A stretch of 39,323 nucleotides of DNA from a virus: positions 1 through 39,323 of the IMG/VR virus record IMGVR_UViG_3300021185_003651; one strand, 5' to 3'. The notes under the pieces were generated by a model that worked only from the letters and a program-made list of their open reading frames with translations, was not told where the DNA came from and searched no databases. Shown here piece by piece: positions 4,854 through 33,489 of the stretch. The number at the start of each line of letters is the position of its first letter. Position 1 is the first letter of the stretch. The translations under genes and the position numbers were made by a program.

Positions 4854-5240
4854 ATGATACAGGCATTTTTAGGGCCAATAGCCAGCTTAGCAGGCACATG
4901 GTTAAATGGAAAAGTAGAAACCAAAGCAGCGGAAACGCGCATGAAGGTATCTGAGGCAGACGCAAAAGCAAAAATTATGTTGTCAGCCGCTACAAGCGAA
5001 GCCGATTGGGAGCGCATAATGGCGCAAGGATCGCAAAACAGTCTCAAGGATGAATGGCTGGTTGGCTTATTCAGCATCCCTTTAATATTATCGTTTTGTG
5101 GTGAGTGGGGGCGTAAGACTGTGGCTGATGGCTTTGCAGCGCTCTCCACCATGCCAGAGTGGTATCAATATACGCTAGGCGTAATTGTCGCGAGTAGCTT
5201 CGCTGTGCGCGGTGCAACTAAGTTTTTTAGCAAACGCTAG
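4854..5240 (+). CDS. Putative holin, 3-TM gene-transfer-release type
   Basis: 128 residues: an N-terminal hydrophobic stretch (about 1-17), a charged Ala/Lys/Glu helix (18-60), then two strong TM segments (about 66-83 and 105-121) and a basic tail. This order, with W and P residues at the membrane edge, resembles the holin_3TM family first described with gene transfer agents (recognised by eye). It is the last gene of the late lysis block and is followed by the small-RNA locus. Confidence 0.6.
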   Translation: MIQAFLGPIASLAGTWLNGKVETKAAETRMKVSEADAKAKIMLSAATSEADWERIMAQGSQNSLKDEWLVGLFSIPLILSFCGEWGRKTVADGFAALSTMPEWYQYTLGVIVASSFAVRGATKFFSKR

Positions 5241-5247
5241 ATATAGC

Positions 5248-5276
5248 TTGTAAAGTAGCGCCAATGGCGATATATA
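5248..5276 (+). promoter_or_regulatory. Operator-containing promoter P1 of the putative small RNA
   Basis: -35 TTGTAA (5248-5253), 17-bp spacer holding GCCAATGGC (5260-5268), -10 TATATA (5271-5276). It is aligned exactly like the other promoters of the family but points to the plus strand, where no gene follows. The predicted start is near 5283. Confidence 0.6.
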
Positions 5277-5282
5277 GAGGCA

Positions 5283-5361
5283 TGAGGTCGATTGCCAATT
5301 GTCAACCTCGTTGGGTTCAAATTGGTAGTGGGGGGTGCGCATTGCGCGCCCCTCACTTTTA
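5283..5361 (+). ncRNA. Putative small regulatory RNA complementary to early mRNA leaders
   Basis: Predicted transcript of about 80 nt between promoter P1 and an intrinsic terminator. The 5' part can fold with GAGGT (5284-5288) pairing ACCTC (5305-5309). The linker 5310-5327 is not paired in this simple fold and begins GTTGGGTTC, the exact complement of the GAACCCAAC leader near start codons of many early genes. No convincing ORF is present. The targets carry GAACCCAAC in the sense orientation relative to their promoter, whereas this locus carries the complement, which favours an antisense role. It could instead be the 3' UTR of the late lysis operon, or an RNA processed from it. Confidence 0.5.
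5328..5361 (+). terminator. Intrinsic terminator of the small RNA and/or late operon
   Basis: 13-bp stem (5328-5340 with 5344-5356, two G-T wobbles), ATT loop, followed by TTTT at 5357-5360. There is no T-run on the other strand, so it acts mainly on plus-strand transcripts. It overlaps the 3' end of the convergent SleB gene. Confidence 0.75.
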
Positions 5362-5766
5362 ACCAAGCGGCACATTAGCCGCATACGTTTTTTCTTCCAG
5401 TTCCATGTAGAATATGTGTTTGCCCACACGGCCTATAGGCTCAAACAAATCAGCCCAATAAGGTCGCACATATGTAGCATGGTAAAAAGTAGCCCCATGC
5501 CCCAAAACCTTCCCATCAAGCGCATCTTGCGCAATATTTACAGCCGTGGCAAACGCGGTTTTATCGCGGGGCTTATCGCTCTTGCCATCCCAATAAAACG
5601 AGAATTGATCTTTTTGCATAACAACCGCGCAAACATTGTTTGGAAAGCCGTTGTCCTGTACGCGATTTATCACGACTTCTGCAACGGCTAGCTGGCCATC
5701 AAGGTTTTCGCCGCGTGCTTCGTGGTACACAGCAAGCGCTAAGCACATAAGGGGAGTGGTAAACAT
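5359..5766 (-). CDS. SleB-type cell wall hydrolase (Hydrolase_2)
   Basis: 135 residues, about the size of the bare SleB catalytic domain. Visible family motifs are H-E-A-R-G-E near residue 15 (catalytic Glu), A-V-A-E-V-V-I-N-R-V, V-C-A-V-V-M-Q-K-D-Q-F-S-F and F-Y-H-A-T-Y-V-R-P. It is expected to cut the glycan strand. The short hydrophobic N-terminus (residues 1-13) runs straight into the catalytic motif and is not a clear signal peptide. The ATG overlaps the upstream stop (TAATG). It is third in a minus-strand operon driven by an operator-containing promoter, separate from the late lysis genes. Confidence 0.8.
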   Translation of the reverse strand: MFTTPLMCLALAVYHEARGENLDGQLAVAEVVINRVQDNGFPNNVCAVVMQKDQFSFYWDGKSDKPRDKTAFATAVNIAQDALDGKVLGHGATFYHATYVRPYWADLFEPIGRVGKHIFYMELEEKTYAANVPLG

Positions 5767-5957
5767 TACTGCACCCCCTCTTCCATTTCGCTAAGCGCAC
5801 GCTTTAACGCACGCTTTATGCGCTTCGATCTGTCTGGCAATATAAGCGCATCAAGACCCTCAATAAGCCACTCCAATTCTTGCTCTGTGGCCGTAACTTG
5901 CTTTGCGGGTAATATGTAAACACCACCATCGATGTTTGTTTGCTGTAAAAACCTCAT
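5766..5957 (-). CDS. Small protein in the SleB operon, unknown function
   Basis: 63 residues, no family recognised. An N-terminal beta segment with Y-I-L-P-A-K-Q-V is followed by a basic amphipathic helix (R-S-K-R-I-K-R-A-L-K-R-A-L). It overlaps its upstream neighbour by 4 bp and SleB by one base, so all three are co-translated. Confidence 0.5.
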   Translation of the reverse strand: MRFLQQTNIDGGVYILPAKQVTATEQELEWLIEGLDALILPDRSKRIKRALKRALSEMEEGVQ

Positions 5958-6397
5958 GCCAACGCTCCTACCAATTTCTGCGTTTCAAGCGTTTGGCTGT
6001 ATGCTTTAGCTTCGCTATCGTGTGCTGGGCGCACATAGGTGGTGCCGCCTACGTTTTGGAAAAGCATGTTAAGAGTGACAGGGCGGTCAAATGTAACAGT
6101 CTGGCTCTCGACCCAAATGTCTGGCACCCGTGCGCTTAGCTGGCCAATCATAAAATGATTGTATTCGAGTATGTCGTTAAACCGCATACCTTGGTTGAGC
6201 GCACGCGCAGCAACACCCAGCTTGAAAATGTCGTTATTGGCGGCAACAAGATATTTATAAACTTGCCCGCCACGCATAGTTTTTTGGTTAGCGTTAAGCG
6301 CCTTCTTCGAAAGCGCGTTGGGACATATAAAACTGCACCACAAAAACCCGTGGGTTTCATAGTCAGCGTTAAATTCTACTGTATAAGGCTTAAACAT
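5954..6397 (-). CDS. First gene of the SleB operon, unknown function
   Basis: 147 residues from the ATG at 6397, chosen over an in-frame TTG two codons upstream because AAAGGA lies 6 nt before the ATG. Mixed alpha/beta, several Asn and aromatic residues, no TM segment; not recognised. The 5' UTR has the leader GAACCCAAC at 6416-6424 and an operator-containing promoter, so it should respond with the other early units. Confidence 0.5.
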   Translation of the reverse strand: MFKPYTVEFNADYETHGFLWCSFICPNALSKKALNANQKTMRGGQVYKYLVAANNDIFKLGVAARALNQGMRFNDILEYNHFMIGQLSARVPDIWVESQTVTFDRPVTLNMLFQNVGGTTYVRPAHDSEAKAYSQTLETQKLVGALA

Positions 6398-6415: not shown

Positions 6416-6459
6416 GTTGGGTTCGTCATGTTTGTAGCGCCGTTGGCACTATATGTAAA
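6416..6459 (-). promoter_or_regulatory. Operator-containing promoter P2 plus GAACCCAAC leader
   Basis: -35 TTTACA (6454-6459), 17-bp spacer TATAGTGCCAACGGCGC, -10 TACAAA (6431-6436). The palindrome core has one change (GCCAACGGC on the minus strand, 6439-6447). The start would be near 6424, so the leader GAACCCAAC (6416-6424) lies at the very 5' end, 19 nt before the ATG. Confidence 0.55.
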
Positions 6460-9239: not shown

Positions 9240-10055
9240 TTATCCTAATGCAACTTCTTTAAGTTGGGTTTTTTCTAATGGTTGAGTGTCGCACTGCATT
9301 GTGCTGCAAGCGGGGATGTAGCAATTGTCGTAAACTTTACGGGTTAGGGCATCGACACCATTTGTTCCCGCGAACTGTACACGCACGTTTCTAATTTCAT
9401 TTAAAACTTGCTCTGCATGCTGCGCCTTGCTGGCGCTTTCAAGCGCACCCTTACAGGCGGTTGCCCACGCGGATAAGCTTTCTTTGTTTGGCTTGACCGA
9501 TACAACTTTAGCACCGGGAAAGTTTTCCAAGACAGATTGTACAATCTCACTGTTAGCTGTCTTGTCCCCCACTTCTTTCTCAAGGTTTGGCACAGGTATT
9601 GCCGCATCAAGCTTAGGGCTGCCACCGGCAGGCGCACTTGGCTTGGCTACCTTGGCGTCTTTTTCCGCTTTGATAGCATGCCAATCAGCTTCATCCTCAG
9701 AGTAAGCATCGCCATGTAAGCCAACCAGTTTAAGTATAACTCTATCTTTGGCGCGCTTTTCAGCCATTGCCATGGGGTAAGAGTTTTTATTGTTAAACGG
9801 TGCGGCTTCACCAATAGACCATTCGGTTTTATCGCCAAGGTGGCCAGTAACACAAAGCACGGCTTCCTTTTTAGAAACATCGCATGCAATTACTTGCGGC
9901 GGCTCAAATACAATTTTTTTCTTAGCCGCTACTTTTTCAAGCGCTTTATGCAATAAGACAAAAGTGCCGTGGCAATCCCATCCCGCTTGATCTCGACTAA
10001 GGCCAATTTCCTTAATCACTGTTGCCACGTTTTCGGGCACATTATGCTTAGCCAT
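9240..10055 (-). CDS. Putative single-strand annealing protein (ERF/Rad52-like)
   Basis: 271 residues. The stretch P-M-A-M-A-E-K-R-A-K-D-R-V-I-L-K-L-V-G followed by Y-S-E-D-E-A-D (about residues 93-122) is typical of phage single-strand annealing proteins of the ERF/Sak type. The N-terminal 90 residues look alpha/beta; the C-terminal half is a lower-complexity linker and a helical region. It pairs with the YqaJ exonuclease gene directly upstream (8-bp overlap) and SSB downstream, the usual exonuclease/annealase/SSB set. The exact family is not certain. Confidence 0.65.
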   Translation of the reverse strand: MAKHNVPENVATVIKEIGLSRDQAGWDCHGTFVLLHKALEKVAAKKKIVFEPPQVIACDVSKKEAVLCVTGHLGDKTEWSIGEAAPFNNKNSYPMAMAEKRAKDRVILKLVGLHGDAYSEDEADWHAIKAEKDAKVAKPSAPAGGSPKLDAAIPVPNLEKEVGDKTANSEIVQSVLENFPGAKVVSVKPNKESLSAWATACKGALESASKAQHAEQVLNEIRNVRVQFAGTNGVDALTRKVYDNCYIPACSTMQCDTQPLEKTQLKEVALG

Positions 10056-11040
10056 TGACTAGCTCCTTTATTGTTAATGTTCGTTGGGTTCTTGGTTTGA
10101 CCATGTAAGCTTCAACATCACGCGATGGATATTTAAGCACAAAGCCTTCACAACGTGCCTGCGCAGCATCGCCAACCTTGGCCATAATTTTACTGCGCAA
10201 ACCACGTATCTTTTCGCCAATTTCTTTTTCTTCGGCCTTGGCTATCTTGTATGATGCGCAAATTAACGGAAGCTCATTGTCAGCCGTTAAATCTACTTCA
10301 TCAACAACCGCACGCGGGTGCATGCGCTTAATAGTGCTTTCGGTAGCGGTACTGCTATCCACGGGTGGTGTTTTACCGGCAGCAATATTTTCCCAGAACG
10401 CCACGCATGATCTTTCGATGGCTAGCTGCGTATCAACATGCGCACGGTAGAAATATACATATGGTTGATTGCCACCCACTAGCGCGCCAAGCACGCCCCA
10501 CTCATAGCCCATAACGGCCATATAATGTTGTAGCTGTATAATGTACTGCAACGGCGGTTCATCATCCGTCCACTTTTGGTTATGTATAAGCCCGTCAACA
10601 TTTTTGATTTCAAAAACACCCGGCCCTTCAACATGCCCAAGCGCCTCAAGCACTTTATCGCTGGCATGGGTGAACACCGCATCGGGCGTACTGCCCATCT
10701 TGGCATCACCCTCTTTATACAAATATGTGGATTCAGCATATAGACATGACGAGTCGTCATATCCTAAATCTTCCGCAATACCATCGCGGATAGAGTACTC
10801 TAAGCGGCGGCCCCACTGCATACGGGTGCTGTCGGTAAAGTCAGATGGCGCGCCACCTGTTTTTTCCATGTGTAGGCTGAACTGGCTGCCCCACTGGCTC
10901 TTATTTAAAAGGATAGCGGCCTCGCTGCCGCCGATAAAGCTGCGCCTAATACCAAGCCATTCTTCACGCCCATCGAAGTCGATGGAAGCGGGCAGATAGC
11001 CATCCTTATTTGCAGGAAATTGTTTTACATGATTTGCCAT
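10048..11040 (-). CDS. YqaJ/lambda-exonuclease family recombinase
   Basis: 330 residues. YqaJ motifs are clear: R-E-E-W-L-G-I-R-R near residue 26, F-I-G-G-S-E-A-A-I-L-L-N near 36, M-G-S-T-P-D-A-V with the metal Asp near 118, F-E-I-K-N-V with the E-x-K pair near 143, and Q-L-Q-H-Y-M-A-V-M-G near 170. It would digest one strand of dsDNA ends and hand ssDNA to the annealing protein encoded next. The ATG at 11040 has GAGG 5 nt upstream, and the GAACCCAAC leader is at 11054-11062. Its last codons also contain GAACCCAAC (10083-10091), just before the next gene. Confidence 0.9.
   Translation of the reverse strand: MANHVKQFPANKDGYLPASIDFDGREEWLGIRRSFIGGSEAAILLNKSQWGSQFSLHMEKTGGAPSDFTDSTRMQWGRRLEYSIRDGIAEDLGYDDSSCLYAESTYLYKEGDAKMGSTPDAVFTHASDKVLEALGHVEGPGVFEIKNVDGLIHNQKWTDDEPPLQYIIQLQHYMAVMGYEWGVLGALVGGNQPYVYFYRAHVDTQLAIERSCVAFWENIAAGKTPPVDSSTATESTIKRMHPRAVVDEVDLTADNELPLICASYKIAKAEEKEIGEKIRGLRSKIMAKVGDAAQARCEGFVLKYPSRDVEAYMVKPRTQRTLTIKELVNG
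10083..10091 (-). promoter_or_regulatory. GAACCCAAC element before the annealing-protein gene
   Basis: Inside the end of the YqaJ gene, 28 nt upstream of the ATG at 10055. Together with the next bases it matches the putative small RNA over 11 nt. Confidence 0.4.
10746..10760. promoter_or_regulatory. ATGAC-N5-GTCAT palindrome inside YqaJ
   Basis: ATGACGAGTCGTCAT, same arms and 5-bp spacing as sites at 12995-13009 and 20261-20275. It lies in coding sequence, so it may be chance, or an intragenic operator. Confidence 0.3.
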
Positions 11041-11053
11041 GTTTGCCTCATAT

Positions 11054-11121
11054 GTTGGGTTCTAGTCCACAACATATAAGGCAATATGATTATCTTTGCA
11101 ACTCTTAATGTAGCCATTGGC
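11054..11121 (-). promoter_or_regulatory. Promoter/leader region of the recombination operon
   Basis: Minus-strand -35 TTGCAA (11096-11101), 16-bp spacer and -10 TTATAT (11074-11079) give a start near 11067, just before the GAACCCAAC leader at 11054-11062. An exact GCCAATGGC palindrome lies at 11113-11121, upstream of the -35 and not in the spacer, unlike the other promoters. A decayed family promoter around the palindrome is also possible. Confidence 0.45.
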
Positions 11122-11144: not shown

Positions 11145-11759
11145 CTATACAACCTGTTCAGTTACTTTTAAATCAGTATTGCGTTGCACCCATGCAATAG
11201 GCCGCGCAAAGCGTATTCTGACATTAGGAACAGGCTCATTGAAATAGCCCACAAGCGTCCAAAGGGTTGGGTCAGTAGTTGCCACCACCCGCCGCAAGTA
11301 GTGCTTGCCATCTTGGGTTTCAACATAGCATTCCACCCCAGCGGTAGCTAAATCGTGCAGGCTTTCTGCATTTCTTTTTACATAAATAATATCGCCACTA
11401 CGGTATTCTGGATAACAAGAATTATCCAAGACCATCACCGCTTCTAACAATTCTTCTGGGTCTGCAAACGGTGGAAGTTCAACTGTTTGCAAGTTGTCAG
11501 CCATTGGCGGCTTAAGTTCAGCATTTTGTAGCAGAGCAATTACTCCTACCCTAATTTTCTTAGCGCTACCAAATGCAAGCCAATATTCATCAACTTTCAA
11601 TATGCCCGACAGAACTTTTAGCTGGTGCAAGTTCGGTTCGTTCTTGGCCCTCTCCCAATGGGCAACGGCACTTTGGCTAACCGATATACGGCTTGCTAAA
11701 TCTGCTTGCGAAAAACGACACGCCATTCGTGCCTCTTTCAAGCGATCCCCTAGTCTCAT
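11145..11759 (-). CDS. CI-like phage repressor (XRE HTH plus S24 peptidase domain)
   Basis: 204 residues from the ATG at 11759, chosen over an upstream TTG because GGAGG lies 9 nt before it. Residues 1-60 are an XRE helix-turn-helix (F-S-Q-A-D-L-A-S-R-I-S-V-S-Q-S-A-V-A-H-W-E). Residues 105-195 are an S24/LexA-type domain with S114 in N-S-C-Y-P-E-Y-R-S-G-D and K152 in G-K-H-Y-L-R-R, spaced as in LexA. A clear Ala-Gly or Cys-Gly cleavage site is not seen in the linker, so SOS self-cleavage is not certain. It is divergent from a Cro-like gene, the classical lysis-lysogeny switch. Confidence 0.85.
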   Translation of the reverse strand: MRLGDRLKEARMACRFSQADLASRISVSQSAVAHWERAKNEPNLHQLKVLSGILKVDEYWLAFGSAKKIRVGVIALLQNAELKPPMADNLQTVELPPFADPEELLEAVMVLDNSCYPEYRSGDIIYVKRNAESLHDLATAGVECYVETQDGKHYLRRVVATTDPTLWTLVGYFNEPVPNVRIRFARPIAWVQRNTDLKVTEQVV

Positions 11760-11787
11760 ATTTATATTCCTCCAAGTCAAGTAAGTA

Positions 11788-11802
11788 ATGACAAAAAGTA
11801 AT
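11788..11802. promoter_or_regulatory. Candidate CI/Cro operator
   Basis: ATGACAAAAAGTAAT, 28 bp before the cI start; two bases off the ATGAC-N5-GTCAT palindrome found at 10746, 12995 and 20261. It lies where cI transcription should start. The promoter elements of cI and cro themselves are not clear to me. Confidence 0.35.
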
Positions 11803-11894
11803 TAGTTTGATAGTGGTTTAGTATTAGCTGGAAAAGTTAGGCCGGGGATGGGCCAGCGCGACAAGGCGTACACCATGATGAAACAGGAACACCA

Positions 11895-11954
11895 ATGCAG
11901 CAGTTTATTATGACGGAAACAAACCATTTGCCGAAAGAAAATAACACATTATGA
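11895..11954 (+). CDS. Possible 19-residue leader peptide upstream of cro
   Basis: Starts ATG CAG CAG with AGGAACACCA upstream and ends in TGA that overlaps the cro ATG (ATGA). Translational coupling to cro is plausible. The rest of the cI-cro gap (11803-11894) shows no other feature I can support. Too short for coding statistics. Confidence 0.25.
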   Translation: MQQFIMTETNHLPKENNTL

Positions 11955-12166
11955 ATTTTAGAAAACTCATCGAGACATTTAAAAGCCAGAAGCAACTGGC
12001 GGATATTCTGGGAATTAATTATTCCACCGTCAGTCAATGGAAAAGAAGAGGCAGGATTCCCGCCTACAGAATATCGCAAATTCTGGACATTGCCGCTACT
12101 GAGAAGCTGCAACTCACCGCTGATGATTTTTTTACATCCGAAAACCATAACCACATTCAATCATAA
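11951..12166 (+). CDS. Cro-like (YdaS-type) HTH regulator
   Basis: 71 residues with one helix-turn-helix: Q-K-Q-L-A-D-I-L-G-I-N-Y-S-T-V-S-Q-W-K at about residues 13-31, followed by R-I-P-A-Y-R. Divergent from the CI gene and first in the rightward early operon, so it should be the antirepressing Cro equivalent. No dimerisation motif can be named. Confidence 0.75.
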   Translation: MNFRKLIETFKSQKQLADILGINYSTVSQWKRRGRIPAYRISQILDIAATEKLQLTADDFFTSENHNHIQS

Positions 12167-12200
12167 TTAATTACAATTTGTCAAGTTATACGAGCTAGGT

Positions 12201-12644
12201 GTGGAAGAAAAGAGCAAAAATATAGCATATGTAGTACCAAGCACGCCCGTAGCTAAAGCCCGGCCCCGCACTGTGGGCCTACGCAATGGCAGGGTTAGAA
12301 CATACACGCCAGCTAAAACTGCAAATTACGAAACCCACGCAAAAAAATGCGCAATGATAGCGATGCGCGGTCAGCAAGCACTTGAAGGCCCGGTGCGCTT
12401 TACGTGTGAAATTTATTTACCAATACCAAAATCATGGCCTAAGAAAAAACAAGCTGCCGCTGCGGCAGGCGAAGTTCGGCCAATATCTCGCCCCGACATC
12501 GATAATTACATTAAGGCGCTTCTTGATTCTGCAAACGAAATTGTAGTGCAAGATGACAGCCAAGTTGTGGAGTTGGTTTCGCGTAAATCATACAGCCACA
12601 ATCCCAGAGCAACACTTACATTTGAGGAAATAAAAAATGCGTAA
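12201..12644 (+). CDS. rusA: RusA-family Holliday junction resolvase
   Basis: 147 residues, GTG start. RusA motifs: K-A-R-P-R near the N-terminus, I-S-R-P-D-I-D-N-Y-I-K-A-L-L-D with the catalytic Asp cluster at about residues 94-103, and V-V-Q-D-D-S-Q-V-V-E-L near 114. It would resolve branched DNA during replication or recombination. It overlaps the next gene by 8 bp. Upstream (12167-12200) no clear promoter is visible, so it may be read through from cro. Confidence 0.9.
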   Translation: MEEKSKNIAYVVPSTPVAKARPRTVGLRNGRVRTYTPAKTANYETHAKKCAMIAMRGQQALEGPVRFTCEIYLPIPKSWPKKKQAAAAAGEVRPISRPDIDNYIKALLDSANEIVVQDDSQVVELVSRKSYSHNPRATLTFEEIKNA

Positions 12645-13014
12645 AAAACTACCAGCCCGCCGCCGTGCCGAAAGCTTTAGGATCGACACACCAACACAAC
12701 GGTTTTTATGCACCGCTGGCTTTGACGAAAAATCTGGCGATTTGCAGGAATTGTTTTTTACAGACCGGGCGCGTGTTGGCAGCGGCCTTGATGATGTGTT
12801 GTACGATTTGGGTGTTCTCGCAAGTTTAGCGCTGCAATACGGGGTTGATCGAAGCGATTTGATTAACAGTTTGTGTAAAGATGAAACGGGAAAGGCCGCA
12901 TCTCCTATAGGGCAAGCGCTTGAAAAGGTTGAAGTAATCGAGAAAGAACATAAATCTACTTTACAGATGTTGGCTTCCTTGTATGGTCGGGACGATGACA
13001 AAACGTCATTATAG
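12637..13014 (+). CDS. TSCPD-domain protein
   Basis: 125 residues. The pattern E-S-F-R-I-D, F-D-E-K-S-G-D-L-Q-E-L-F-F, G-S-G-L-D-D-V-L-Y-D-L-G-V-L-A-S-L-A-L-Q-Y-G-V and L-C-K-D-E-T-G-K-A-A-S-P-I-G matches the TSCPD domain found at the C-terminus of B12-dependent ribonucleotide reductases and as stand-alone phage or bacterial proteins. No reductase gene is in the window. The function of the stand-alone form is not known to me; a nucleotide metabolism link is inferred. Confidence 0.6.
   Translation: MRKKLPARRRAESFRIDTPTQRFLCTAGFDEKSGDLQELFFTDRARVGSGLDDVLYDLGVLASLALQYGVDRSDLINSLCKDETGKAASPIGQALEKVEVIEKEHKSTLQMLASLYGRDDDKTSL
12995..13009. promoter_or_regulatory. ATGAC-N5-GTCAT palindrome before the DUF1376 gene
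   Basis: ATGACAAAACGTCAT at the very end of the TSCPD gene, 4 bp before a GAACCCAAC leader. Same arms and spacing as the sites at 10746 and 20261. Confidence 0.35.
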
Positions 13015-13022
13015 AACCCAAC
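13014..13022 (+). promoter_or_regulatory. GAACCCAAC leader of the DUF1376 gene
   Basis: Plus-strand copy of the leader, overlapping the TSCPD stop and followed by GGAG and the ATG at 13033. It shows that the element follows the sense strand of the gene and is not tied to one genome strand. Confidence 0.5.
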
Positions 13023-13032
13023 GGAGCAGCCA

Positions 13033-13698
13033 ATGGCAAGAAACTCAACGGCATATATGCCGCTGTGGGTCGGTGATTATTTAGCCGATACGCAGCACCT
13101 AACTACAGTGGAGCATGGCACGTATTTACTGCTTATAATGCACTACTGGCGCAATGGCCCATTTAGCACAGACAAGCGCAAGATTTGTCGTATAAGTGGC
13201 CAAACGCGATACACTAATTGCTTACCCATCTTAGAAGAGTTCTTTACAGAACAGGGCGGCAAATGGCACCACAAGCGCGTGGATGCCGAACTAGAAAAAG
13301 CTAAAGAATATCAAGACCGTAGATCAATCGCGGGCAAGGCTGGTGCTAAGGCCAGATGGGATAGCAATCGCATAGCAATCGCATACGATAGCCAATCCGA
13401 TGGCAATGGCACTCATAATCATACCAATAAAGATAATAACTATCTCTACATCGGTAGGGTTTTTAGGCTTACCCAAAAATCAATGGATGGATTTAAGAAG
13501 TTTGGCAGCCCAAACCAAATACTCGAACAGGTTAAAAAGGCAGATGCGTATTATGATGCGCGTATAGCCGATGGCCATGAAAAGGATAATTTTAGATTTA
13601 GCAGTACGGCATTCTTTAAGCTAAGTAGTTGGTTAGAAAAATCACATAACCAGCCCCAGCAAGGAAGTGGAAAGCCTCGCGTTAAGTCAGCAATTTAG
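13033..13698 (+). CDS. DUF1376 (YdaU-like) replication-associated protein
   Basis: 221 residues. The N-terminal part is typical of DUF1376: Y-M-P-L-W-V-G-D-Y-L-A-D-T, L-T-x-x-E-H-G-T-Y-L-L-L and Y-W-R-N-G-P. A basic linker (A-G-A-K-A-R-W) and a helical C-terminus of about 70 residues follow. Proteins of this type often sit before phage helicase genes and act like lambda O or helicase loaders (established context). Here it directly precedes the primase-helicase. Confidence 0.75.
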   Translation: MARNSTAYMPLWVGDYLADTQHLTTVEHGTYLLLIMHYWRNGPFSTDKRKICRISGQTRYTNCLPILEEFFTEQGGKWHHKRVDAELEKAKEYQDRRSIAGKAGAKARWDSNRIAIAYDSQSDGNGTHNHTNKDNNYLYIGRVFRLTQKSMDGFKKFGSPNQILEQVKKADAYYDARIADGHEKDNFRFSSTAFFKLSSWLEKSHNQPQQGSGKPRVKSAI

Positions 13699-13709
13699 GA
13701 ATAACCAAA

Positions 13710-15542
13710 ATGGAACCCAACTTTTGGAATGATTTACAGAGTGCGGATGGCATAAAGCTGCCGCAAGATAGCCCCGGCAGTTACAAGATTGTCTGCCCAG
13801 AGTGCGGTGGCAAAGGCAGCAAAGGCTTCGAAGGAAAAACGCTTAGCGTTACAGTCGATGAAAAAGGCGTTGTCTGGTACTGCAACCGGCAAAACAATTG
13901 CGGCCACACGGGCAGCCGTTTATTCACCAAGCCAGAGGAAGCGTGGCGGCAAGTTAAGCAGAAAAAAGTTTACCGCAAGCCACAAGAACCGGCCAAACCT
14001 CAAGGCGGGTTAGATGAACGTATATACGGCTGGTTTGAGCAGCGTGGCATAAGCAGCGAAACCGTAAACGCGCATAATATTTTCCATCAAGACCGTGGCT
14101 TTGGTGAACATCAAAAGCGGTGGGTGGCATTCCCATACCACAATCTGGAAAGCCAGCTTACCAACGTGAAGTATCGCACGCTTAAGGAAAAACGGTTTAC
14201 CCAAGAAAAAGATGCAGAACAAACTTTCTACGGTCTTTCCATGGTGCCAGATGATGCAGGCAAAACGCTTTACATTGTAGAGGGCGAAATGGACAAGCTG
14301 GCCATGTACGAGGCAGGCTATAAGCATTGTGTCAGCGTGCCAGCGGGCGGTATAAGCGAAAAGTCTATTGGTAAGCTATCAGACGATAGCGATAAATTCC
14401 TGTTTATACAGCATGCAGGCGCTTGGCTTGATAGGTTTGAGCATTTTGTACTGGCGTGCGACTTCGATGAAGTTGGCAAGGCGCTAATGGAAGAGGTTAG
14501 CAGGCGCTTAGGCCGCGAAAAATGCTGGCGTGTGCATTGGCCAAAAGGCGAAGATGGCGCGTACATGAAGGATGCCAATGATGTTCTTATGGTGCAAGGC
14601 ACTGAGGGATTAATTGCGGCAGTAGAGGCGGCAGAGCCGTGGCCAATACACGATATTCACAGCGTAACGGATTACGCTAGCGAGGTGTGGAAATTGTATC
14701 GTGGCGAGTATGACAAGCCACTTTCCACCGGGTTCCGTAATCTAGACCAGCATATGCGTATTAGGCCGGGCGAAATTTCCGTGGTTACTGGCATACCAAA
14801 CAGCGGCAAGTCGGAAATGATGGACGCGATAATGCTCAACATGATTTCGCTTCACGGCTGGAAGTTTGGGATTTGTAGCTTTGAAAATGCGCCACGCTTC
14901 CACATTGCAAAGCTAGCGGAAAAGATTATTGGCGCGCCGTTCTTTGGCAGCGAAACGCCAGTGCCACGGGCCAGCGAAACCGATGTGCAGAATGCTATGG
15001 TTTACCTAAACGATAATGTGCAGTTTATACGCGCTGACGACCCCGACAAACGCCCGCCAAGCATTGATTGGATAATTGGTAGGGCAAAGGCCATGGTGCG
15101 CCAGTTCGGGCTGCGTGGGCTTGTTATTGACCCATACAACGAGATTGAAAGTACACGCGGCAACAACATGAGCGAGACGGAGTTTATTTCGTACCTGTTA
15201 AGTAAGATAAAACGCTTTGCCCAAACGTATGATGTTCATGTTTGGATTGTGGCCCACCCACGCAAGATGAACGCTATTGATGGCGTAACGCCCATCCCCG
15301 GCCTTTACGACATTGGTGGCAGCGCACATTGGGCCAATAAGGCTGATTTAGGGTGGTGCGTAAGTCGGGATCGGGCAGACACAAGTAAGCCAACGGAGCT
15401 ACACATTTTGAAGGTTAGGTTCAAGGAGTGCGGCAGCGCTGGCGGCATTGCTAATTTTAGTTGGGATAAATGGTCTGGCCGTTATTCGCCGTTTATGGAA
15501 GAAACTCCAGAGGTTTACAGAACATCCTATGCGGATGGTTGA
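13710..15542 (+). CDS. Bifunctional primase-helicase (T7 gp4/Twinkle-like)
   Basis: 610 residues. An N-terminal zinc motif has C29, C32, C58 and C64; a TOPRIM domain has I-V-E-G-E-M-D near 190 and L-A-C-D-F-D-E-V-G near 246; the DnaB/RecA-like helicase has Walker A G-I-P-N-S-G-K-S at 361-368, Walker B L-V-I-D-P-Y-N with D474, and the H-P-R-K motif near 515. It would prime and unwind at the phage fork. There is no phage DNA polymerase in the window, so host polymerase is presumably recruited. Codons 2-4 are GAA CCC AAC, placing the leader motif on the start region itself. Confidence 0.9.
   Translation: MEPNFWNDLQSADGIKLPQDSPGSYKIVCPECGGKGSKGFEGKTLSVTVDEKGVVWYCNRQNNCGHTGSRLFTKPEEAWRQVKQKKVYRKPQEPAKPQGGLDERIYGWFEQRGISSETVNAHNIFHQDRGFGEHQKRWVAFPYHNLESQLTNVKYRTLKEKRFTQEKDAEQTFYGLSMVPDDAGKTLYIVEGEMDKLAMYEAGYKHCVSVPAGGISEKSIGKLSDDSDKFLFIQHAGAWLDRFEHFVLACDFDEVGKALMEEVSRRLGREKCWRVHWPKGEDGAYMKDANDVLMVQGTEGLIAAVEAAEPWPIHDIHSVTDYASEVWKLYRGEYDKPLSTGFRNLDQHMRIRPGEISVVTGIPNSGKSEMMDAIMLNMISLHGWKFGICSFENAPRFHIAKLAEKIIGAPFFGSETPVPRASETDVQNAMVYLNDNVQFIRADDPDKRPPSIDWIIGRAKAMVRQFGLRGLVIDPYNEIESTRGNNMSETEFISYLLSKIKRFAQTYDVHVWIVAHPRKMNAIDGVTPIPGLYDIGGSAHWANKADLGWCVSRDRADTSKPTELHILKVRFKECGSAGGIANFSWDKWSGRYSPFMEETPEVYRTSYADG
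13713..13721 (+). promoter_or_regulatory. GAACCCAAC motif at the primase-helicase start
   Basis: Lies directly after the ATG at 13710 as codons 2-4. Pairing of an antisense RNA here would cover the ribosome start site. Confidence 0.4.
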
Positions 15543-15790
15543 TTGGCCTCTTGCCTAATTTCACCTATGGCGCGCTCTATGTTTACATCAAGCGGTAAGC
15601 CCATACGGTGGCGCTCCCACAACATTGCAAGCAGTAATGGCACCTCTGGTGGCAACTTGCGCGCACCGCTTACCCAGCGGCGCACAGTTGTATCGTCACG
15701 GCCAAGCAATCGCGCAAACTTTCGCTGCGCGCCAAACCCCAAAATGGTTTCAATACTGGCTTTAAATTCTTGTGGTGTCATTTGTTCCAT
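15527..15790 (-). CDS. Small HTH DNA-binding protein, candidate regulator of the operator promoters
   Basis: 87 residues from the ATG at 15790 (AGAAGAAAG upstream); more upstream ATGs exist but lie beyond the predicted promoter. The HTH is G-A-Q-R-K-F-A-R-L-L-G-R-D-D-T-T-V-R-R-W-V-S-G at about residues 18-40, followed by a helical segment with L-L-L-A-M-L-W-E-R. Its own promoter contains the GCCAATGGC palindrome in the spacer, suggesting autoregulation. The tail overlaps the convergent primase-helicase gene by 16 bp. That it binds the palindromes is inference. Confidence 0.65.
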   Translation of the reverse strand: MEQMTPQEFKASIETILGFGAQRKFARLLGRDDTTVRRWVSGARKLPPEVPLLLAMLWERHRMGLPLDVNIERAIGEIRQEANQPSA

Positions 15791-16365: not shown

Positions 16366-16511
16366 TACGCTGTTTCCTTAATTTTGTTTTCAATTTTGGC
16401 GATGGCAAATTCAACTTGTTCAGTAAGCAAGTCATTGCACTTCATAAAATCTAAAGAAACATAAAGGGCAGTAAGTGCTTCGCGGTCATATTGGCTAAGT
16501 GGGTTTGTCAT
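16365..16511 (-). CDS. 48-residue early protein, unknown function
   Basis: Short ORF starting ATG ACA AAC with AAGGA upstream in the leader AAGGAACCCAGC, ending in TAATG shared with the next gene. Mostly helical (Y-D-R-E-A-L-T-A-L-Y-V-S-L-D-F-M-K). Support comes from the promoter, the leader and coupling to the next gene. Confidence 0.55.
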   Translation of the reverse strand: MTNPLSQYDREALTALYVSLDFMKCNDLLTEQVEFAIAKIENKIKETA

Positions 16512-16513
16512 TT

Positions 16514-16576
16514 GCTGGGTTCCTTTGTTTACGTTGTTAATGAATTATGTATAGGGCCATTGGCACTACTTAGCAA
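16514..16576 (-). promoter_or_regulatory. Operator-containing promoter P4 plus leader
   Basis: -35 TTGCTA (16571-16576), 17-bp spacer AGTAGTGCCAATGGCCC, -10 TATACA (16548-16553). The leader GAACCCAGC is at 16514-16522; its single change from the consensus still pairs with the small RNA through a G-U wobble. Confidence 0.6.
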
Positions 16577-17015: not shown

Positions 17016-18077
17016 TTATGCAGCGGTTGCTAGTTCCCGCCATTCACCTTGGCGCAAGTCCAAGATTTGGCCGCCAATGTTTTCCAGTTCAGTAGCGCGC
17101 TCATAGCTGTCAACGTCTTGGCTAAACCGTGTCACCGCGTTCAACATGCCGTAAGCGCTTAAGTCTCCACCTTCGATAAGGTGGCTTAGAATGCCGCGTT
17201 GCTCTGCTTCTGGCATAGTAAACTTGCGGCCTAGTTCCTCAACGGCACCTACTGGGTCGCTGATGCGGCTGCTTTCCGCTGCATCGCGCATCTTGTTAAC
17301 GATATCGTTAAATTTAAGGTCGTTGGCAGCGCCGCGTACAAGGTCGCGTATCTTAAGCATAAGCGCAGCATCATCCGCTTGCATTGCTTCATCACTGTAA
17401 AGCTCATAAACATCCTCGCTTGTAGCTACATGGCGGCCAATGTGGTTTGTGCGGCTACCAGCGCCCGGCACAGACATGCCGTTTTTGCAAACGAGGCGGT
17501 AGATAAACATGCTAACCGATACAGCGCCGTGGCCAACTTCTGAATTGCTGATGCTAATCCCAGCTTGCACGACATCGCCAACTCTAACTTCCGCTTGGAC
17601 TTGCGGCAGCACGGCTTTTATGTGCATCCGTTTTTCGGTTAGTGCTGTGCTTTCTATGCGTACCTCTGGAAGTTCGCTAAGCACCGGCAAAGCAGCTTGC
17701 GCAATAGCGTAGTTGTCAATGCGGCGGTATCTGTCGCTGAGCCAAGCCCGCGCAGTGTTGCTGCCGTTACACACGGTGCGAACCATGCGCTTAGAAGGTT
17801 CATTAGCCAGCCAGTGGTTGACGTTGTTTTCCAGCAAGTTTGGCGCGTCTGCGCGCATGCGGTCATAATACTTTTTCGGCACACCTAAGTTTGCACAGAT
17901 TTGGCTGTGGGCAATGTCGTTAATTTCAAAAGCTTCGTCATTAAACATTAACGCCGCACCTTGGTCGCCCATATGTTCAAAACGCATTTTGCGGGTATCA
18001 AGCACGAAGTCGCGCTTTTCGTTTTCAAGTGTATCAAGTTTAGATGCCAATTCGGCTATTGTGTATTGCTGTTTCAT
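17016..18077 (-). CDS. DUF932-family protein
   Basis: 353 residues. DUF932 features: L-S-D-R-Y-R-R-I-D-N-Y near residue 113, an I-S-I-S-N-S-E-V-G-H-G-A-V-S-V segment near 174, and R-L-V-C-K-N-G-M near 195. Homologues occur on plasmids and phages and are often annotated LGT/DUF945-like; the activity is not known. The start codon directly follows the element AAGGAACCCAAC, so the Shine-Dalgarno and the leader overlap. Confidence 0.7.
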   Translation of the reverse strand: MKQQYTIAELASKLDTLENEKRDFVLDTRKMRFEHMGDQGAALMFNDEAFEINDIAHSQICANLGVPKKYYDRMRADAPNLLENNVNHWLANEPSKRMVRTVCNGSNTARAWLSDRYRRIDNYAIAQAALPVLSELPEVRIESTALTEKRMHIKAVLPQVQAEVRVGDVVQAGISISNSEVGHGAVSVSMFIYRLVCKNGMSVPGAGSRTNHIGRHVATSEDVYELYSDEAMQADDAALMLKIRDLVRGAANDLKFNDIVNKMRDAAESSRISDPVGAVEELGRKFTMPEAEQRGILSHLIEGGDLSAYGMLNAVTRFSQDVDSYERATELENIGGQILDLRQGEWRELATAA

Positions 18078-18086
18078 GTTGGGTTC
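18078..18086 (-). promoter_or_regulatory. GAACCCAAC leader of the DUF932 gene
   Basis: Immediately before the ATG and fused to the AAGGA ribosome-binding site. No promoter is seen in the 57-bp gap, so it lies inside a polycistronic mRNA. Confidence 0.5.
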
Positions 18087-18134: not shown

Positions 18135-18635
18135 TTACTGCAAAGAAAGTTGTGGCTGGCGGTTGCTGGCGCACTCTTGCTTTGGTGAATAAAATTGCGA
18201 GTATTGGCGCGCCGCATCGTCATAACCATTTTGGTCAACGATCTCTTTAATGCGCCAGCGTTTATTCTGTGCGCGTGGCGCATCTGGGCTATCAACCAGC
18301 CCCATTGCGCTTAACCGGCTTAAAGCGCTTGATACGCAATTGCGGTCACACGCAAAGCCATCTTTATTCATGGCATCGGTTAAATCCTGGGATGTTGGGT
18401 TTATCCGTTTGATATTACCAAGCGCATCGTATGCGGCTTTTGTAATGTTGCGCCGCTTTTGGCGGGTGCGCACGGCAACCTCTACAGGTGCAGCTTCTAC
18501 AGCTACAGGCGCATCTTCTACGGCTTGAGCAAGCATGCTTATATCGCTGATGGTGCAGCCCATCTTTTGGGCGTGCATGATAGTTTCGCCCATTGCTGTT
18601 TCTGGGCCGGTGATTACCAAATTAAATTTAGTCAT
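18135..18635 (-). CDS. Putative winged-helix protein
   Basis: 166 residues from the ATG at 18635, which follows GAGGAACCCAACAT. The C-terminal part from about residue 70 (Q-K-R-R-N-I-T-K-A-A-Y-D-A-L, then V-S-S-A-L-S-R-L-S-A-M-G-L-V) looks like a winged-helix DNA-binding domain; the N-terminal 60 residues are acidic. It could be an early regulator. Evidence is pattern-based. Confidence 0.5.
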   Translation of the reverse strand: MTKFNLVITGPETAMGETIMHAQKMGCTISDISMLAQAVEDAPVAVEAAPVEVAVRTRQKRRNITKAAYDALGNIKRINPTSQDLTDAMNKDGFACDRNCVSSALSRLSAMGLVDSPDAPRAQNKRWRIKEIVDQNGYDDAARQYSQFYSPKQECASNRQPQLSLQ

Positions 18636-18637
18636 AT

Positions 18638-18646
18638 GTTGGGTTC
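18638..18646 (-). promoter_or_regulatory. GAACCCAAC leader of the winged-helix gene
   Basis: Two bases before the ATG at 18635, following GAG of the ribosome-binding site. Internal to the P5 transcript. Confidence 0.5.
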
Positions 18647-18652
18647 CTCGCA

Positions 18653-18874
18653 TTATAAAAAAGTTACGTTTAAGGTTTTTTCGGCTTTCTGTGTGCCGTG
18701 TGCTTTGCGAAACTGGTCGCAAATTACATCGCGGGGCTCTGTTTCCGCTAAGCTTACAATGGTGGCTAGCGCGCTATAGTCATTGCTGTCGTATGCCGCT
18801 TGCGCTTGTGTAAACACTTCATTGTCCATGCCGCCGGGGGTCATGTATTGGGTAAAGTTTGCTGCGTTTGCCAT
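18653..18874 (-). CDS. Small early protein, unknown function
   Basis: 73 residues, helical, Ala- and Thr-rich, no motif recognised. GAGGAACCAA precedes the ATG. First gene of the unit P5 - 18653 - winged-helix - DUF932 - membrane protein - terminator. Confidence 0.5.
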   Translation of the reverse strand: MANAANFTQYMTPGGMDNEVFTQAQAAYDSNDYSALATIVSLAETEPRDVICDQFRKAHGTQKAEKTLNVTFL

Positions 18875-18884
18875 TTGGTTCCTC

Positions 18885-18940
18885 GCTGGGTTCTAATTAA
18901 CTTATGCACTATACATAGTGCCAATGGCCACGTAGTGCAA
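18885..18940 (-). promoter_or_regulatory. Operator-containing promoter P5 plus leader
   Basis: -35 TTGCAC (18935-18940), 17-bp spacer TACGTGGCCATTGGCAC, -10 TATGTA (18912-18917). The leader variant GAACCCAGC is at 18885-18893. The -35 flank GACTTGCA is shared with promoter P8, suggesting duplicated cassettes. Confidence 0.6.
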
Positions 18941-19365: not shown

Positions 19366-19818
19366 TTATGCTATATGCCAGTAGCCATACACGCAGCGCG
19401 TGCCATCGCGGGCGCAGTCGTGGGTGTCATGCACCACCCCATCGATCACGGCCACGCAATGGCGCGACACGTTACACACCAGCCTACCGTCTGGCAGTTC
19501 ATCAGCTTTAAGGTGTACTTTGCACCCGCTGCCAATTGTCATGGTGGGCACCCACGTAAAGCCAAGCTCAAGCATGTAGTCTTTAAACCACTTGCGGGTT
19601 GTGCTGATGCCGTTATTGGCAGACTTGGCCCGCTTGCCTTTGTCATGCTTTGACTTGCGCTGTTTCGCGTTTCCATCCGCGAGGCGCGTATACACCTCTT
19701 GGTATGGCAGATCAGCGGCTATCGCTATCGCACGGCAAACGCAGTCGCTAGCGTTGCCTTTAAAGCCAGCGGCCTCGCGGCCACCATCGTTGTAAGTAAA
19801 GTTTGTGTTGTCGAGCAT
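19366..19818 (-). CDS. Putative papain-like cysteine peptidase-fold phage protein
   Basis: 150 residues. N-A-S-D-C-V-C-R-A-I-A-I-A near residue 25 would give the nucleophile Cys, S-R-H-C-V-A-V-I-D-G near 118 the His, and V-H-D-T-H-D near 129 an Asp. This D-C-x-x-R-A plus H-x-x-A pattern recurs in uncharacterised phage proteins that I take to have a papain-like fold. AAAGGAG lies before the ATG. It has its own promoter, leader and terminator. Peptidase activity is inferred only. Confidence 0.5.
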   Translation of the reverse strand: MLDNTNFTYNDGGREAAGFKGNASDCVCRAIAIAADLPYQEVYTRLADGNAKQRKSKHDKGKRAKSANNGISTTRKWFKDYMLELGFTWVPTMTIGSGCKVHLKADELPDGRLVCNVSRHCVAVIDGVVHDTHDCARDGTRCVYGYWHIA

Positions 19819-19832
19819 GTTGCTCTCCTTTT

Positions 19833-19902
19833 GTTGGGTTCAAACACGTAACAGCCTCAACCGCTACAAACCCAGTATAGTGCCAATGGCCCTATATGTC
19901 AA
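19833..19902 (-). promoter_or_regulatory. Operator-containing promoter P6 plus leader (best match to consensus)
   Basis: -35 TTGACA (19897-19902), 17-bp spacer TATAGGGCCATTGGCAC, -10 TATACT (19874-19879): a near-perfect sigma70 promoter with the palindrome filling the spacer. The start would be near 19867. Leader GAACCCAAC is at 19833-19841; with flanking bases it complements the small RNA over 12 nt. Confidence 0.7.
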
Positions 19903-19982: not shown

Positions 19983-20192
19983 TTACTCAAGGAGAAGAAA
20001 CTGCGCTGGCGTTACACAACTGTTGTATTGGTTCCATTGCGTTTTATCCCAAGTCTCGCAGCCTAAAAATACATTAAGCACCAGAAATAAAGCGAATATA
20101 CCAAATACAAATGCCATGGTGATTGCCAATAAAGTGTTGCCAGCCTTTGCAAGCCAGCCTGTCGTGTTGGGTTCTTGTTGGTGTGCATACAT
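19983..20192 (-). CDS. Small single-pass membrane protein
   Basis: 69 residues from the ATG at 20192, which has AAAGGAACCCAACAT upstream. TM segment at about 20-42 (L-L-A-I-T-M-A-F-V-F-G-I-F-A-L-F-L-V-L), then two Cys in the C-terminal part. Codons 7-9 are again GAA CCC AAC (20166-20174). An envelope-directed early function is inferred (for example exclusion); no family is recognised. Confidence 0.5.
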   Translation of the reverse strand: MYAHQQEPNTTGWLAKAGNTLLAITMAFVFGIFALFLVLNVFLGCETWDKTQWNQYNSCVTPAQFLLLE

Positions 20193-20194
20193 AT

Positions 20195-20253
20195 GTTGGG
20201 TTCCTTTTCGTCTGCATGTTAGCGCAGTATAGCGCATGGCCATGCAATTGCAA
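20195..20253 (-). promoter_or_regulatory. Operator-containing promoter P7 plus leader (16-bp spacer variant)
   Basis: -35 TTGCAA (20248-20253), 16-bp spacer with the palindrome GCATGGCCATGC, -10 TATACT (20226-20231). The core differs from the other eight and the spacer is 1 bp shorter. Leader GAACCCAAC at 20195-20203. Confidence 0.55.
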
Positions 20254-21824: not shown

Positions 21825-23026
21825 AGTTTGACGTTGAAATGTGGTTAGTTGATAGGCCCAAGCCATACGAGAACAACCCACGTATGATTTCGCCCGAAGC
21901 AATCGCAAAAGTAGCAAAGTCAATTAAGGAATACGGGTTTCAACAGCCTATCGTGGTGGATGAAGATGATATAATCTTGGTTGGCCATACACGCCTTATG
22001 GCGGCGCAGTCTTTAGGCGTAAGCGAGGTTCCAGTGCATGTGGCAAGTGGCTTAACCGCAAGCCAAAAGCGCGGCTACCGAGTGGCCGACAACCGCACAG
22101 GTACAGAATCCCAATGGGATTATCCTTTGCTTAAGCTTGAGTTAGATACTTTAAACGAAACAGATTTCGATTTGGGCTTAACTGGCTTTGACCCCGGCGA
22201 GTTGGATAAATTGCTAAATTTCACGCTTGATGCCGACAAAGAGGGTGATGAAGATGCCGTGCCAGATGTGCCAGATGCGCCAGTAACGGTGGAAGGCGAT
22301 TTGTGGGTGTTGGGCAGGCACAGGCTGTTGTGCGGAGATAGCACAAGCGTGGACGCAGTTGATAAGCTAATGAATGGCACCAGCGTTGATTTGGTATTTA
22401 CAGACCCGCCATACAACGTGGCGTTCAATGGGCGCAGCGGGAAGCATGACGTAATCAAAAACGATAACTTGCCAGAAGCAGAATTTGACGCATTTATTGC
22501 AGAAGTTTGTGGCGTTATAACATCTGTTAAACCGAAGGCATATTATGTTTGGTGTAATTGGAGCTTTTACGGAACGCTCCAAAAGCTTTTGCCGTTTAAA
22601 ACGTGTATCGTTTGGGCCAAAAATGTCTTTGGAATGGGCGCAGGCTACAGGCATCAGCATGAGTTTTGCTTATTTAATGGTAAGATTGACCAAGTCGTAA
22701 AGAATGAAAGCGATTTATGGTCTGTCGCTAAAGATCACGCATACATGCACCCTACGCAAAAGCCGGTGGAGCTATCGGTGCGTGCGTTTGGAAACCACGT
22801 AAAGCTTTTAAATGTGTTGGATTTGTTTGGTGGGTCTGGGTCGACAATGATTGGCGCGGAACAAACAGGCAGAAATTGCTACATGATGGAATTAGACCCC
22901 AAATATTGTGATGTCATTGTAAAGCGGTGGCAGGAATTTACGGGCGAAAAAGCATATCACGAAACCTTAAAATCGCAGTTCGATAAAATAAGCGATGAAC
23001 GGGCAGTGCAAACTGAGGCAGCATAG
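21821..23026 (+). CDS. ParB-N domain fused to a DNA (adenine-N6/cytosine-N4) methyltransferase
   Basis: 401 residues. Residues 1-95 form a ParB/Srx-like domain (N-N-P-R, G-F-Q-Q-P-I-V-V-D, V-G-H-T-R-L-M-A-A). Residues 160-385 form a beta-class methyltransferase: motif IV D-P-P-Y-N near 188 comes before motif I L-D-L-F-G-G-S-G-S near 330, and T-Q-K-P-V-E lies before motif I. It would modify phage DNA, perhaps against host restriction or to control transcription. The recognition sequence cannot be read from the protein. Confidence 0.88.
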   Translation: MKFDVEMWLVDRPKPYENNPRMISPEAIAKVAKSIKEYGFQQPIVVDEDDIILVGHTRLMAAQSLGVSEVPVHVASGLTASQKRGYRVADNRTGTESQWDYPLLKLELDTLNETDFDLGLTGFDPGELDKLLNFTLDADKEGDEDAVPDVPDAPVTVEGDLWVLGRHRLLCGDSTSVDAVDKLMNGTSVDLVFTDPPYNVAFNGRSGKHDVIKNDNLPEAEFDAFIAEVCGVITSVKPKAYYVWCNWSFYGTLQKLLPFKTCIVWAKNVFGMGAGYRHQHEFCLFNGKIDQVVKNESDLWSVAKDHAYMHPTQKPVELSVRAFGNHVKLLNVLDLFGGSGSTMIGAEQTGRNCYMMELDPKYCDVIVKRWQEFTGEKAYHETLKSQFDKISDERAVQTEAA

Positions 23027-32979: not shown

Positions 32980-33365
32980 TCTACGTGTTCATCCATAAAC
33001 CGCATGCTTACGTTGTTTGGCGCGAAACAGCCGGGGTCACCTTGTGCATTCATAACTGTCCACATCTGGTGGTAAGCTTGGGCGCGGCGCTTATCGCCAC
33101 CGGCTTTGGCAAACTTATCAGCCTCGTTTTTAAAATTAGAATAATCGATGTTTTGGGTTTCATTAAGCATAACGCGCTCAAAATGCTTGCGATCCATGAA
33201 AAACCTAAACGGGTAATCGTGTGTTGGCGTGTGCATTGCCGGGCAATCAGCACCAAACACCTTTTCAATATCACCCCTAAAGCGTGCGCGCACTAGCACC
33301 TCGCTATCTGGTTTGTTAGTATTTTGCACAACGCTAAAGAAAGCGTCTTTAAGACATATCCACAT
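32976..33365 (-). CDS. Moron-like conserved hypothetical protein
   Basis: 129 residues from the ATG at 33365 (AAGGAG 6 nt upstream); the longer frame to 33428 overlaps the promoter and is not used. It begins M-W-I-C-L-K-D-A-F-F-S-V-V and has V-R-A-R-F-R-G-D-I-E-K-V-F and I-D-Y-S-N-F-K, a pattern I know from conserved hypothetical proteins of phages and proteobacteria. It is antisense to the late operon, with its own operator promoter and leader, so it is an early or lysogenic gene inside the head block. Confidence 0.6.
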   Translation of the reverse strand: MWICLKDAFFSVVQNTNKPDSEVLVRARFRGDIEKVFGADCPAMHTPTHDYPFRFFMDRKHFERVMLNETQNIDYSNFKNEADKFAKAGGDKRRAQAYHQMWTVMNAQGDPGCFAPNNVSMRFMDEHVD

Positions 33366-33375
33366 AAATGGCTCC

Positions 33376-33444
33376 TTGGGTTCAAATTTTGGCGGGTGGC
33401 CCACCGGGGAAGCACCGTATAGCGCCATTGGCTACGTTATGCAA
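33376..33444 (-). promoter_or_regulatory. Operator-containing promoter P8 plus leader
   Basis: -35 TTGCAT (33439-33444), 17-bp spacer AACGTAGCCAATGGCGC, -10 TATACG (33416-33421). Leader GAACCCAA lies at 33376-33383; including flanks it complements the small RNA over 13 nt (33376-33388), the longest match. Confidence 0.6.
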
Positions 33445-33460
33445 GTCTTTTAATTAAAAC

Positions 33461-33489
33461 TTGTCATATAGTGCCATTGGCTGTATATA
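33461..33489 (+). promoter_or_regulatory. Operator-containing promoter P9 for scaffold/capsid genes
   Basis: -35 TTGTCA (33461-33466), 17-bp spacer TATAGTGCCATTGGCTG, -10 TATATA (33484-33489). It is divergent from P8, with palindrome centres 49 bp apart, and lies 65 bp before the scaffold gene. No GAACCCAAC leader follows. Confidence 0.6.

Follow-up and report, generated by a model that had tools for sequence, protein, structure and literature searches.

The interval from 5248 to 5361 of the window, meaning the whole 39,323-base stretch of DNA analyzed, is likely the gene for a phage trans-acting antisense RNA of about 80 nt that represses translation of the early regulon. The unit, the tag at early-gene starts, the complementarity of the two, their shared operator, and their conservation are shown from the sequence; production of the RNA, repression by pairing, and timing are inferred, with no expression data available. 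A first-pass annotation had claimed that one trans-acting RNA tunes translation of an early set, which the comparative evidence supports, with the transcript and the lowered translation still unproven. Readings of the unit as a decayed leader, a small-peptide gene, or a cis-antisense RNA fit worse than a trans-acting antisense RNA.

The virus record, drawn from an environmental collection, is a temperate phage genome, whole or for the most part, with genes for an integrase, CI-like repressor, RecE-like exonuclease, primase/helicase, terminase, portal, and head proteins. Two genes end beside the unit, one on the plus strand (4854-5240) and one for a cell-wall hydrolase on the minus strand (5359-5766). 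Viral contigs contain hundreds of relatives of the 128-aa protein of the former gene, which matches no Pfam family, and Roseobacter and Puniceispirillum phages carry similar DNA.

Short-RNA unit and its predicted fold

The following features were located in the unit.

5248..5276, plus strand: short-RNA promoter, TTGTAA (5248-5253), 17-bp spacer and TATATA (5271-5276), read from the sequence
5260..5268, no strand assigned: operator GCCAATGGC in the promoter spacer, a palindrome also present at early-gene promoters and in the copy of the unit in the relative G002
5283..5361, plus strand: predicted short RNA of about 79 nt, its 5' end placed by inference from the -10 box
5284..5309, plus strand: 5' hairpin GAGGU...ACCUC, which competes with a longer, linker-containing hairpin
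5310..5318, plus strand: linker seed GUUGGGUUC, the exact complement of leaders
5328..5360, plus strand: terminator hairpin, 13 bp followed by UUUU, -27.2 kcal/mol, z -6.7

The 17-bp spacing of the short-RNA promoter is that of the other operator promoters. Its hexamers match the consensus at only 8 of 12 positions, which is a weak point and the reason for its absence from the strict promoter scan. The terminator stem (5328-5356) comprises 13 bp and is followed by a U-run of only four, under the cutoff of the scan; a second, weaker terminator-like hairpin lies downstream at 5367-5382. As for an Hfq-binding module, the terminal U-run is U4 in the window and U6 in G002. No Rfam family scored above the gathering threshold anywhere in the window. 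The sRNA membership criterion of an own promoter and intrinsic terminator without a conserved coding frame was met. Among the earlier claims, a promoter of the operator family at 5248-5276 on the plus strand held, with weak hexamers, as did a 13-bp terminator hairpin with a T-run, the run being just four; the absence of an ORF between promoter and terminator failed, and a 26-codon ATG frame (5282-5362) crosses the unit.

That the unit encodes this 26-codon peptide can nearly be ruled out. The ATG lies at the predicted RNA start and the frame stays open to a TAA at 5360-5362. Against the peptide, a Shine-Dalgarno sequence is absent and the conserved part shows no synonymous changes. The frame is no evidence for a peptide gene, because the near relative G005 lacks its stop and no similar peptide was found in the far relative G002.

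Almost as firmly dismissed is the idea that the unit serves the cell-wall hydrolase gene (5359-5766), as its cis-antisense RNA or merely as its terminator. In its favor, the RNA heads toward the hydrolase 3' end, and read-through to the hairpin at 5367-5382 would overlap that gene. Against it, the overlap is merely the last three bases at the predicted RNA end, and in G002, the unit is on the opposite strand and stops about 160 bases away from the closest gene end, with linker and operator kept. Membership in the cis-antisense class (OOP type) was considered and rejected; its criterion, being encoded opposite the target, is not met by an intergenic unit with a three-base overlap.

The claimed fold of 5' hairpin, open linker, and terminator held only in part. 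In the minimum-energy fold, the linker is half-buried in a competing hairpin that sets GGGUU against AACCU, and the open-linker fold lies 1.7 kcal/mol higher, giving two near-equal states. With the open-linker fold no more than about 2 kcal/mol above the minimum, little energy is needed to expose the linker: 2.1 kcal/mol for the 9 nt, compared with leader helices of -13 to -20 kcal/mol. A strongly paired linker, named earlier as an observation that would refute the proposal, is not borne out by the computed folds.

Tag at early-gene starts and its complementarity to the RNA

The motif GAACCCARC matched the window 13 times, compared to a shuffle mean of 0.59, and no shuffle reached 13. Twelve of the 13 copies are sense, on the coding strand and within about 45 bases of an early-gene start codon, at or just 5' of it except for the copy at 20166, which falls inside the first codons. 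The thirteenth, at 5310, is the sole antisense copy and lies inside the promoter-to-terminator unit. Sense copies and one variant are listed below.

6416..6424, minus strand: leader GAACCCAAC, gene starting at 6397
10083..10091, minus strand: leader GAACCCAAC, within the RecE-like gene at its 3' end, 5' of the gene starting at 10055
11054..11062, minus strand: leader GAACCCAAC, RecE-like exonuclease gene starting at 11040
13014..13022, plus strand: leader GAACCCAAC, intergenic, 5' of the primosomal gene starting at 13033
13713..13721, plus strand: GAACCCAAC as codons 2-4, primase/helicase
16514..16522, minus strand: leader GAACCCAGC, small gene starting at 16511
18078..18086, minus strand: leader GAACCCAAC, DUF932 gene starting at 18077
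18638..18646, minus strand: leader GAACCCAAC, gene starting at 18635
18885..18893, minus strand: leader GAACCCAGC, gene starting at 18874, 13-bp pairing with the RNA
19833..19841, minus strand: leader GAACCCAAC, gene starting at 19818, 13-bp pairing with the RNA
20166..20174, minus strand: GAACCCAAC inside the first codons, gene starting at 20192
20195..20203, minus strand: leader GAACCCAAC, gene starting at 20192
33375..33383, minus strand: leader GAACCCAAG, before the start at 33365 and behind operator promoters 33432 and 33481

All complementary leader sites that the first-pass annotation had listed were present. The copy at 20166 was added, and a site placed at 33376 was corrected to GAACCCAAG at 33375-33383. 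The tag frequently overlaps or adjoins the Shine-Dalgarno sequence (AAGGAACCCAACATATG). The copies at 10083, 13014, and 13713 lie between or inside operon genes, at places that require no promoter, and the tag is therefore most readily interpreted as an RNA element. Leaders are fairly open, with a mean unpaired value of 0.61 versus 0.45 for the background. The tag-bearing DUF932 protein (17016-18077, minus strand) has distant relatives that are common in mycobacterial phages.

An outlying minus-strand gene (33365-33481) in the late region carries two operator promoters and the tag, and the late region of G002 holds a different gene (22294-22521) with operator and tag. Accessory genes seem to join the regulon, as these late-region genes differ and carry both elements nonetheless.

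Contiguous pairing between RNA and leader reached 11-13 pairs at five leaders, in agreement with the earlier claim of an extension to 11-13 nt at some sites. Specificity was assessed by pairing the first 48 nt of the RNA with 53 start regions from a hand-picked gene list, 14 of which formed a helix of ≤ -12.9 kcal/mol with the RNA, 12 through the linker. Other genomic 48-mers reached a mean of 2.7 at the same strict cutoff, and those attaining 13-14 were mostly antisense strands of leaders. Full-length duplex scoring against all starts was nondiscriminating, with every start below the cutoff, and a contiguous-helix cutoff of -9 kcal/mol was too lax; only the stricter cutoff separated the starts. 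The sRNA membership criterion of being encoded away from the targets, with accessible complementarity to ribosome-binding sites, was met.

An RNA that pairs with the leaders and activates or stabilizes early mRNAs is very improbable, even if it cannot be excluded. Some tags lie upstream of a separate Shine-Dalgarno sequence (19841, 6424, and 10091), so pairing need not cover it, and the RNA and its targets are under the same operator. Against activation, many tags overlap the Shine-Dalgarno sequence or abut the AUG (18078, 18638, and 20195), the tag at 13713 forms codons 2-4, where a duplex would block initiation, and the open leaders (0.61 versus 0.45 unpaired) leave little structure to relieve.

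Conservation of unit and tag in related phages

The close relative L001 (G005), with about 92% DNA identity, keeps the promoter and linker. No substitutions were found at the 46 positions of the RNA body (5282-5327), against a divergence of about 8% overall and 15-18% at third positions in the flanking genes. The six orthologous tags carried 0/54 changes versus 18/351 just upstream and 6/238 downstream, which is compatible with a possible constraint on the tag and does not prove it, being just weakly under the flanking rate.

The genomes G001, G002, and G003 are more distant (primase 71-77% identical), and all retain operators and tags. G001 and G003 are fragments ending before the locus and neither support nor refute the unit. 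In G002, whose early proteins are 32-81% identical (RecE 68%, the gene at 5954 only 32%), the unit occurs at the same locus on the opposite (minus) strand, after the homologue of 4854-5240. Its promoter (TTGCAG-17-TACAAT) has the operator GCCATTGGC in the spacer and is followed by a 10-bp 5' hairpin, GUUGGGUUA, and a terminator with U6. Assuming that transcription begins with the expected spacing from the -10 box, the G002 linker is open (0.8 kcal/mol). What is conserved is the arrangement of the unit, despite the switched strand and different hairpins. Relatives keeping the leaders and lacking the linker would, according to the first-pass annotation, have refuted the idea; this was not the case, as L001/G005 and G002, both covering the locus, have the unit, including a complementary linker and the shared operator. 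Across the three genomes covering the locus, an operator promoter followed by GTTGGGT occurs in this unit only, and the chance of finding one somewhere is about 2-5% per genome, taken alone.

At the edge of the seed, the window has C and G002 has A. Four G002 leaders (RecE, the distal tag of DUF932, the gene starting at 17716, and the gene starting at 22521) read TAACCCAA, fitting the G002 linker, compared to 0 of 31 leaders elsewhere (Fisher P of about 0.001 with nine leaders and 0.0002 with the six that have an intact AACCCA). The leader sets for this test were chosen by us, and the leaders share ancestry. Two of the other G002 leaders keep G, and three changed otherwise in the first two positions. 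The core, ACCCAAC, is mostly retained; it pairs with GUUGGGU in the window and in G002 alike. The matching change, one position in four leaders, is suggestive and not decisive for conserved pairing because of the leaders that keep G or differ otherwise and of the shared ancestry. The RNA is known in just two independent versions, which differ at one seed position.

Further copies of the RNA were sought by exact-linker search, which returned L001 only. A leader-pattern search gave 120 contigs, mostly unrelated, and an operator-pattern search gave late-region fragments and unrelated contigs. Alignment of the neighbor gene returned other phages without the unit, and primase and RecE alignments returned the same clade plus one fragment. 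Bacterial genomes yielded distant primases only, and the annotated phage collection contained no close relative.

In a rival explanation that we consider unlikely, no regulatory RNA exists: the tag enhances translation or binds a protein on early mRNAs, and the copy at 5310 is what decay has left of a leader whose minus-strand gene was lost. On the minus strand, the copy reads GAACCCAACGAGG followed by TTG, which is leader-like, and A/C-rich elements near the Shine-Dalgarno sequence can enhance translation (PMC3879156), which counts for the enhancer. Against decay, promoter and terminator both run on the plus strand, the G002 complement GUUGGGUUA again lies between an operator promoter and a U6 terminator despite the other strand, and 46 of 46 bases are retained in the near relative, which is unexpected for decay.

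Operator, proposed mechanism, and known systems

The claim that the RNA shares its operator with the early set held, the same palindrome being present at early promoters. The operator GCCANTGGC is absent between the CI-like gene and RusA (11740-12210) in the window, and likewise in G002; this interval contains a small cro-like helix-turn-helix (HTH) frame. Given this absence from the cI-cro interval, CI may not bind the operator, and a second regulator is conceivable, with no binding data. An 87-aa HTH-like protein is encoded at 15527-15790 on the minus strand, with a weak YdaS match below the curated cutoff. The gene, starting at 15790, has the operator GCCAATGGC in its own promoter and no tag, and its homologues in related phages, including G002, are alike. 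With the operator in its own promoter, no tag, and no operator in the cI-cro interval, its product could well be the regulator, again without binding data, and the lysogeny logic of the first-pass annotation therefore needs care.

In the mechanism proposed for the trans-acting antisense RNA, the RNA would be transcribed from the operator-bearing promoter, end at the intrinsic terminator, and fold into the 5' hairpin, the GUUGGGUUC linker, and the terminator hairpin. The linker would pair with the GAACCCAAC tag, which covers or adjoins the Shine-Dalgarno sequence and start codon inside the ribosome footprint, thereby blocking translation initiation across the whole tagged set. Derepression would switch on RNA and targets together through the common operator, and the RNA would go on to limit early protein synthesis or end it at a later stage, forming an incoherent feed-forward loop. 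In a lysogen, the RNA may filter leaky early mRNA.

A bolder reading, toward which we lean slightly, is that a dedicated antisense RNA and a common address tag on most ribosome-binding sites of the early regulon, under one operator, form a regulon-wide translational switch, in which the strand, hairpins, and seed edge of the RNA were replaced in evolution and the address code was kept. If true, this would illustrate clearly how a phage can coordinate its early program at the level of translation, with one RNA acting on many leaders. It would also provide a signature for such circuits in uncultured phages, namely, tags at starts with one antisense copy behind an operator promoter.

By analogy, with no sequence relation implied, the nearest functional counterpart is GcvB, which targets yifK by pairing adjacent to its Shine-Dalgarno sequence (PMC3879156). 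The likeness to GcvB and other multitarget bacterial sRNAs is that of one RNA with many mRNAs and pairing beside the Shine-Dalgarno sequence. GcvB is a host RNA, and its targets vary in sequence. In contrast to GcvB, the predicted RNA belongs to a phage, matches a near-exact single tag in the phage's own genes, and is under their own operator.

According to a 2025 review, the phage sRNAs sar, OOP, and aQ act on one phage gene, and VpdS, PreS, and 24B_1 act largely on the host or Hfq (PMC12197685). The predicted RNA resembles sar of P22 and OOP of lambda as a short phage RNA pairing with phage mRNA and lowering expression; however, these have one described gene each (ant and cII), and OOP is listed as cis-encoded, whereas the RNA of the unit would be distant from its dozen or so targets (PMC12197685). 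It resembles VpdS of VP882, PreS of lambda, and 24B_1 as a phage-encoded trans-acting sRNA affecting phage development, yet VpdS and PreS are Hfq dependent, 24B_1 is processed, and all three have host and phage targets (PMC12197685). A repeated tag in own early genes is not described for these three in the relevant sections of the review (PMC12197685), as judged in a limited open-access search. The reviewed phage sRNAs hit single phage genes or largely the host (PMC12197685), in contrast to the design proposed here, in which one RNA would address many leaders.
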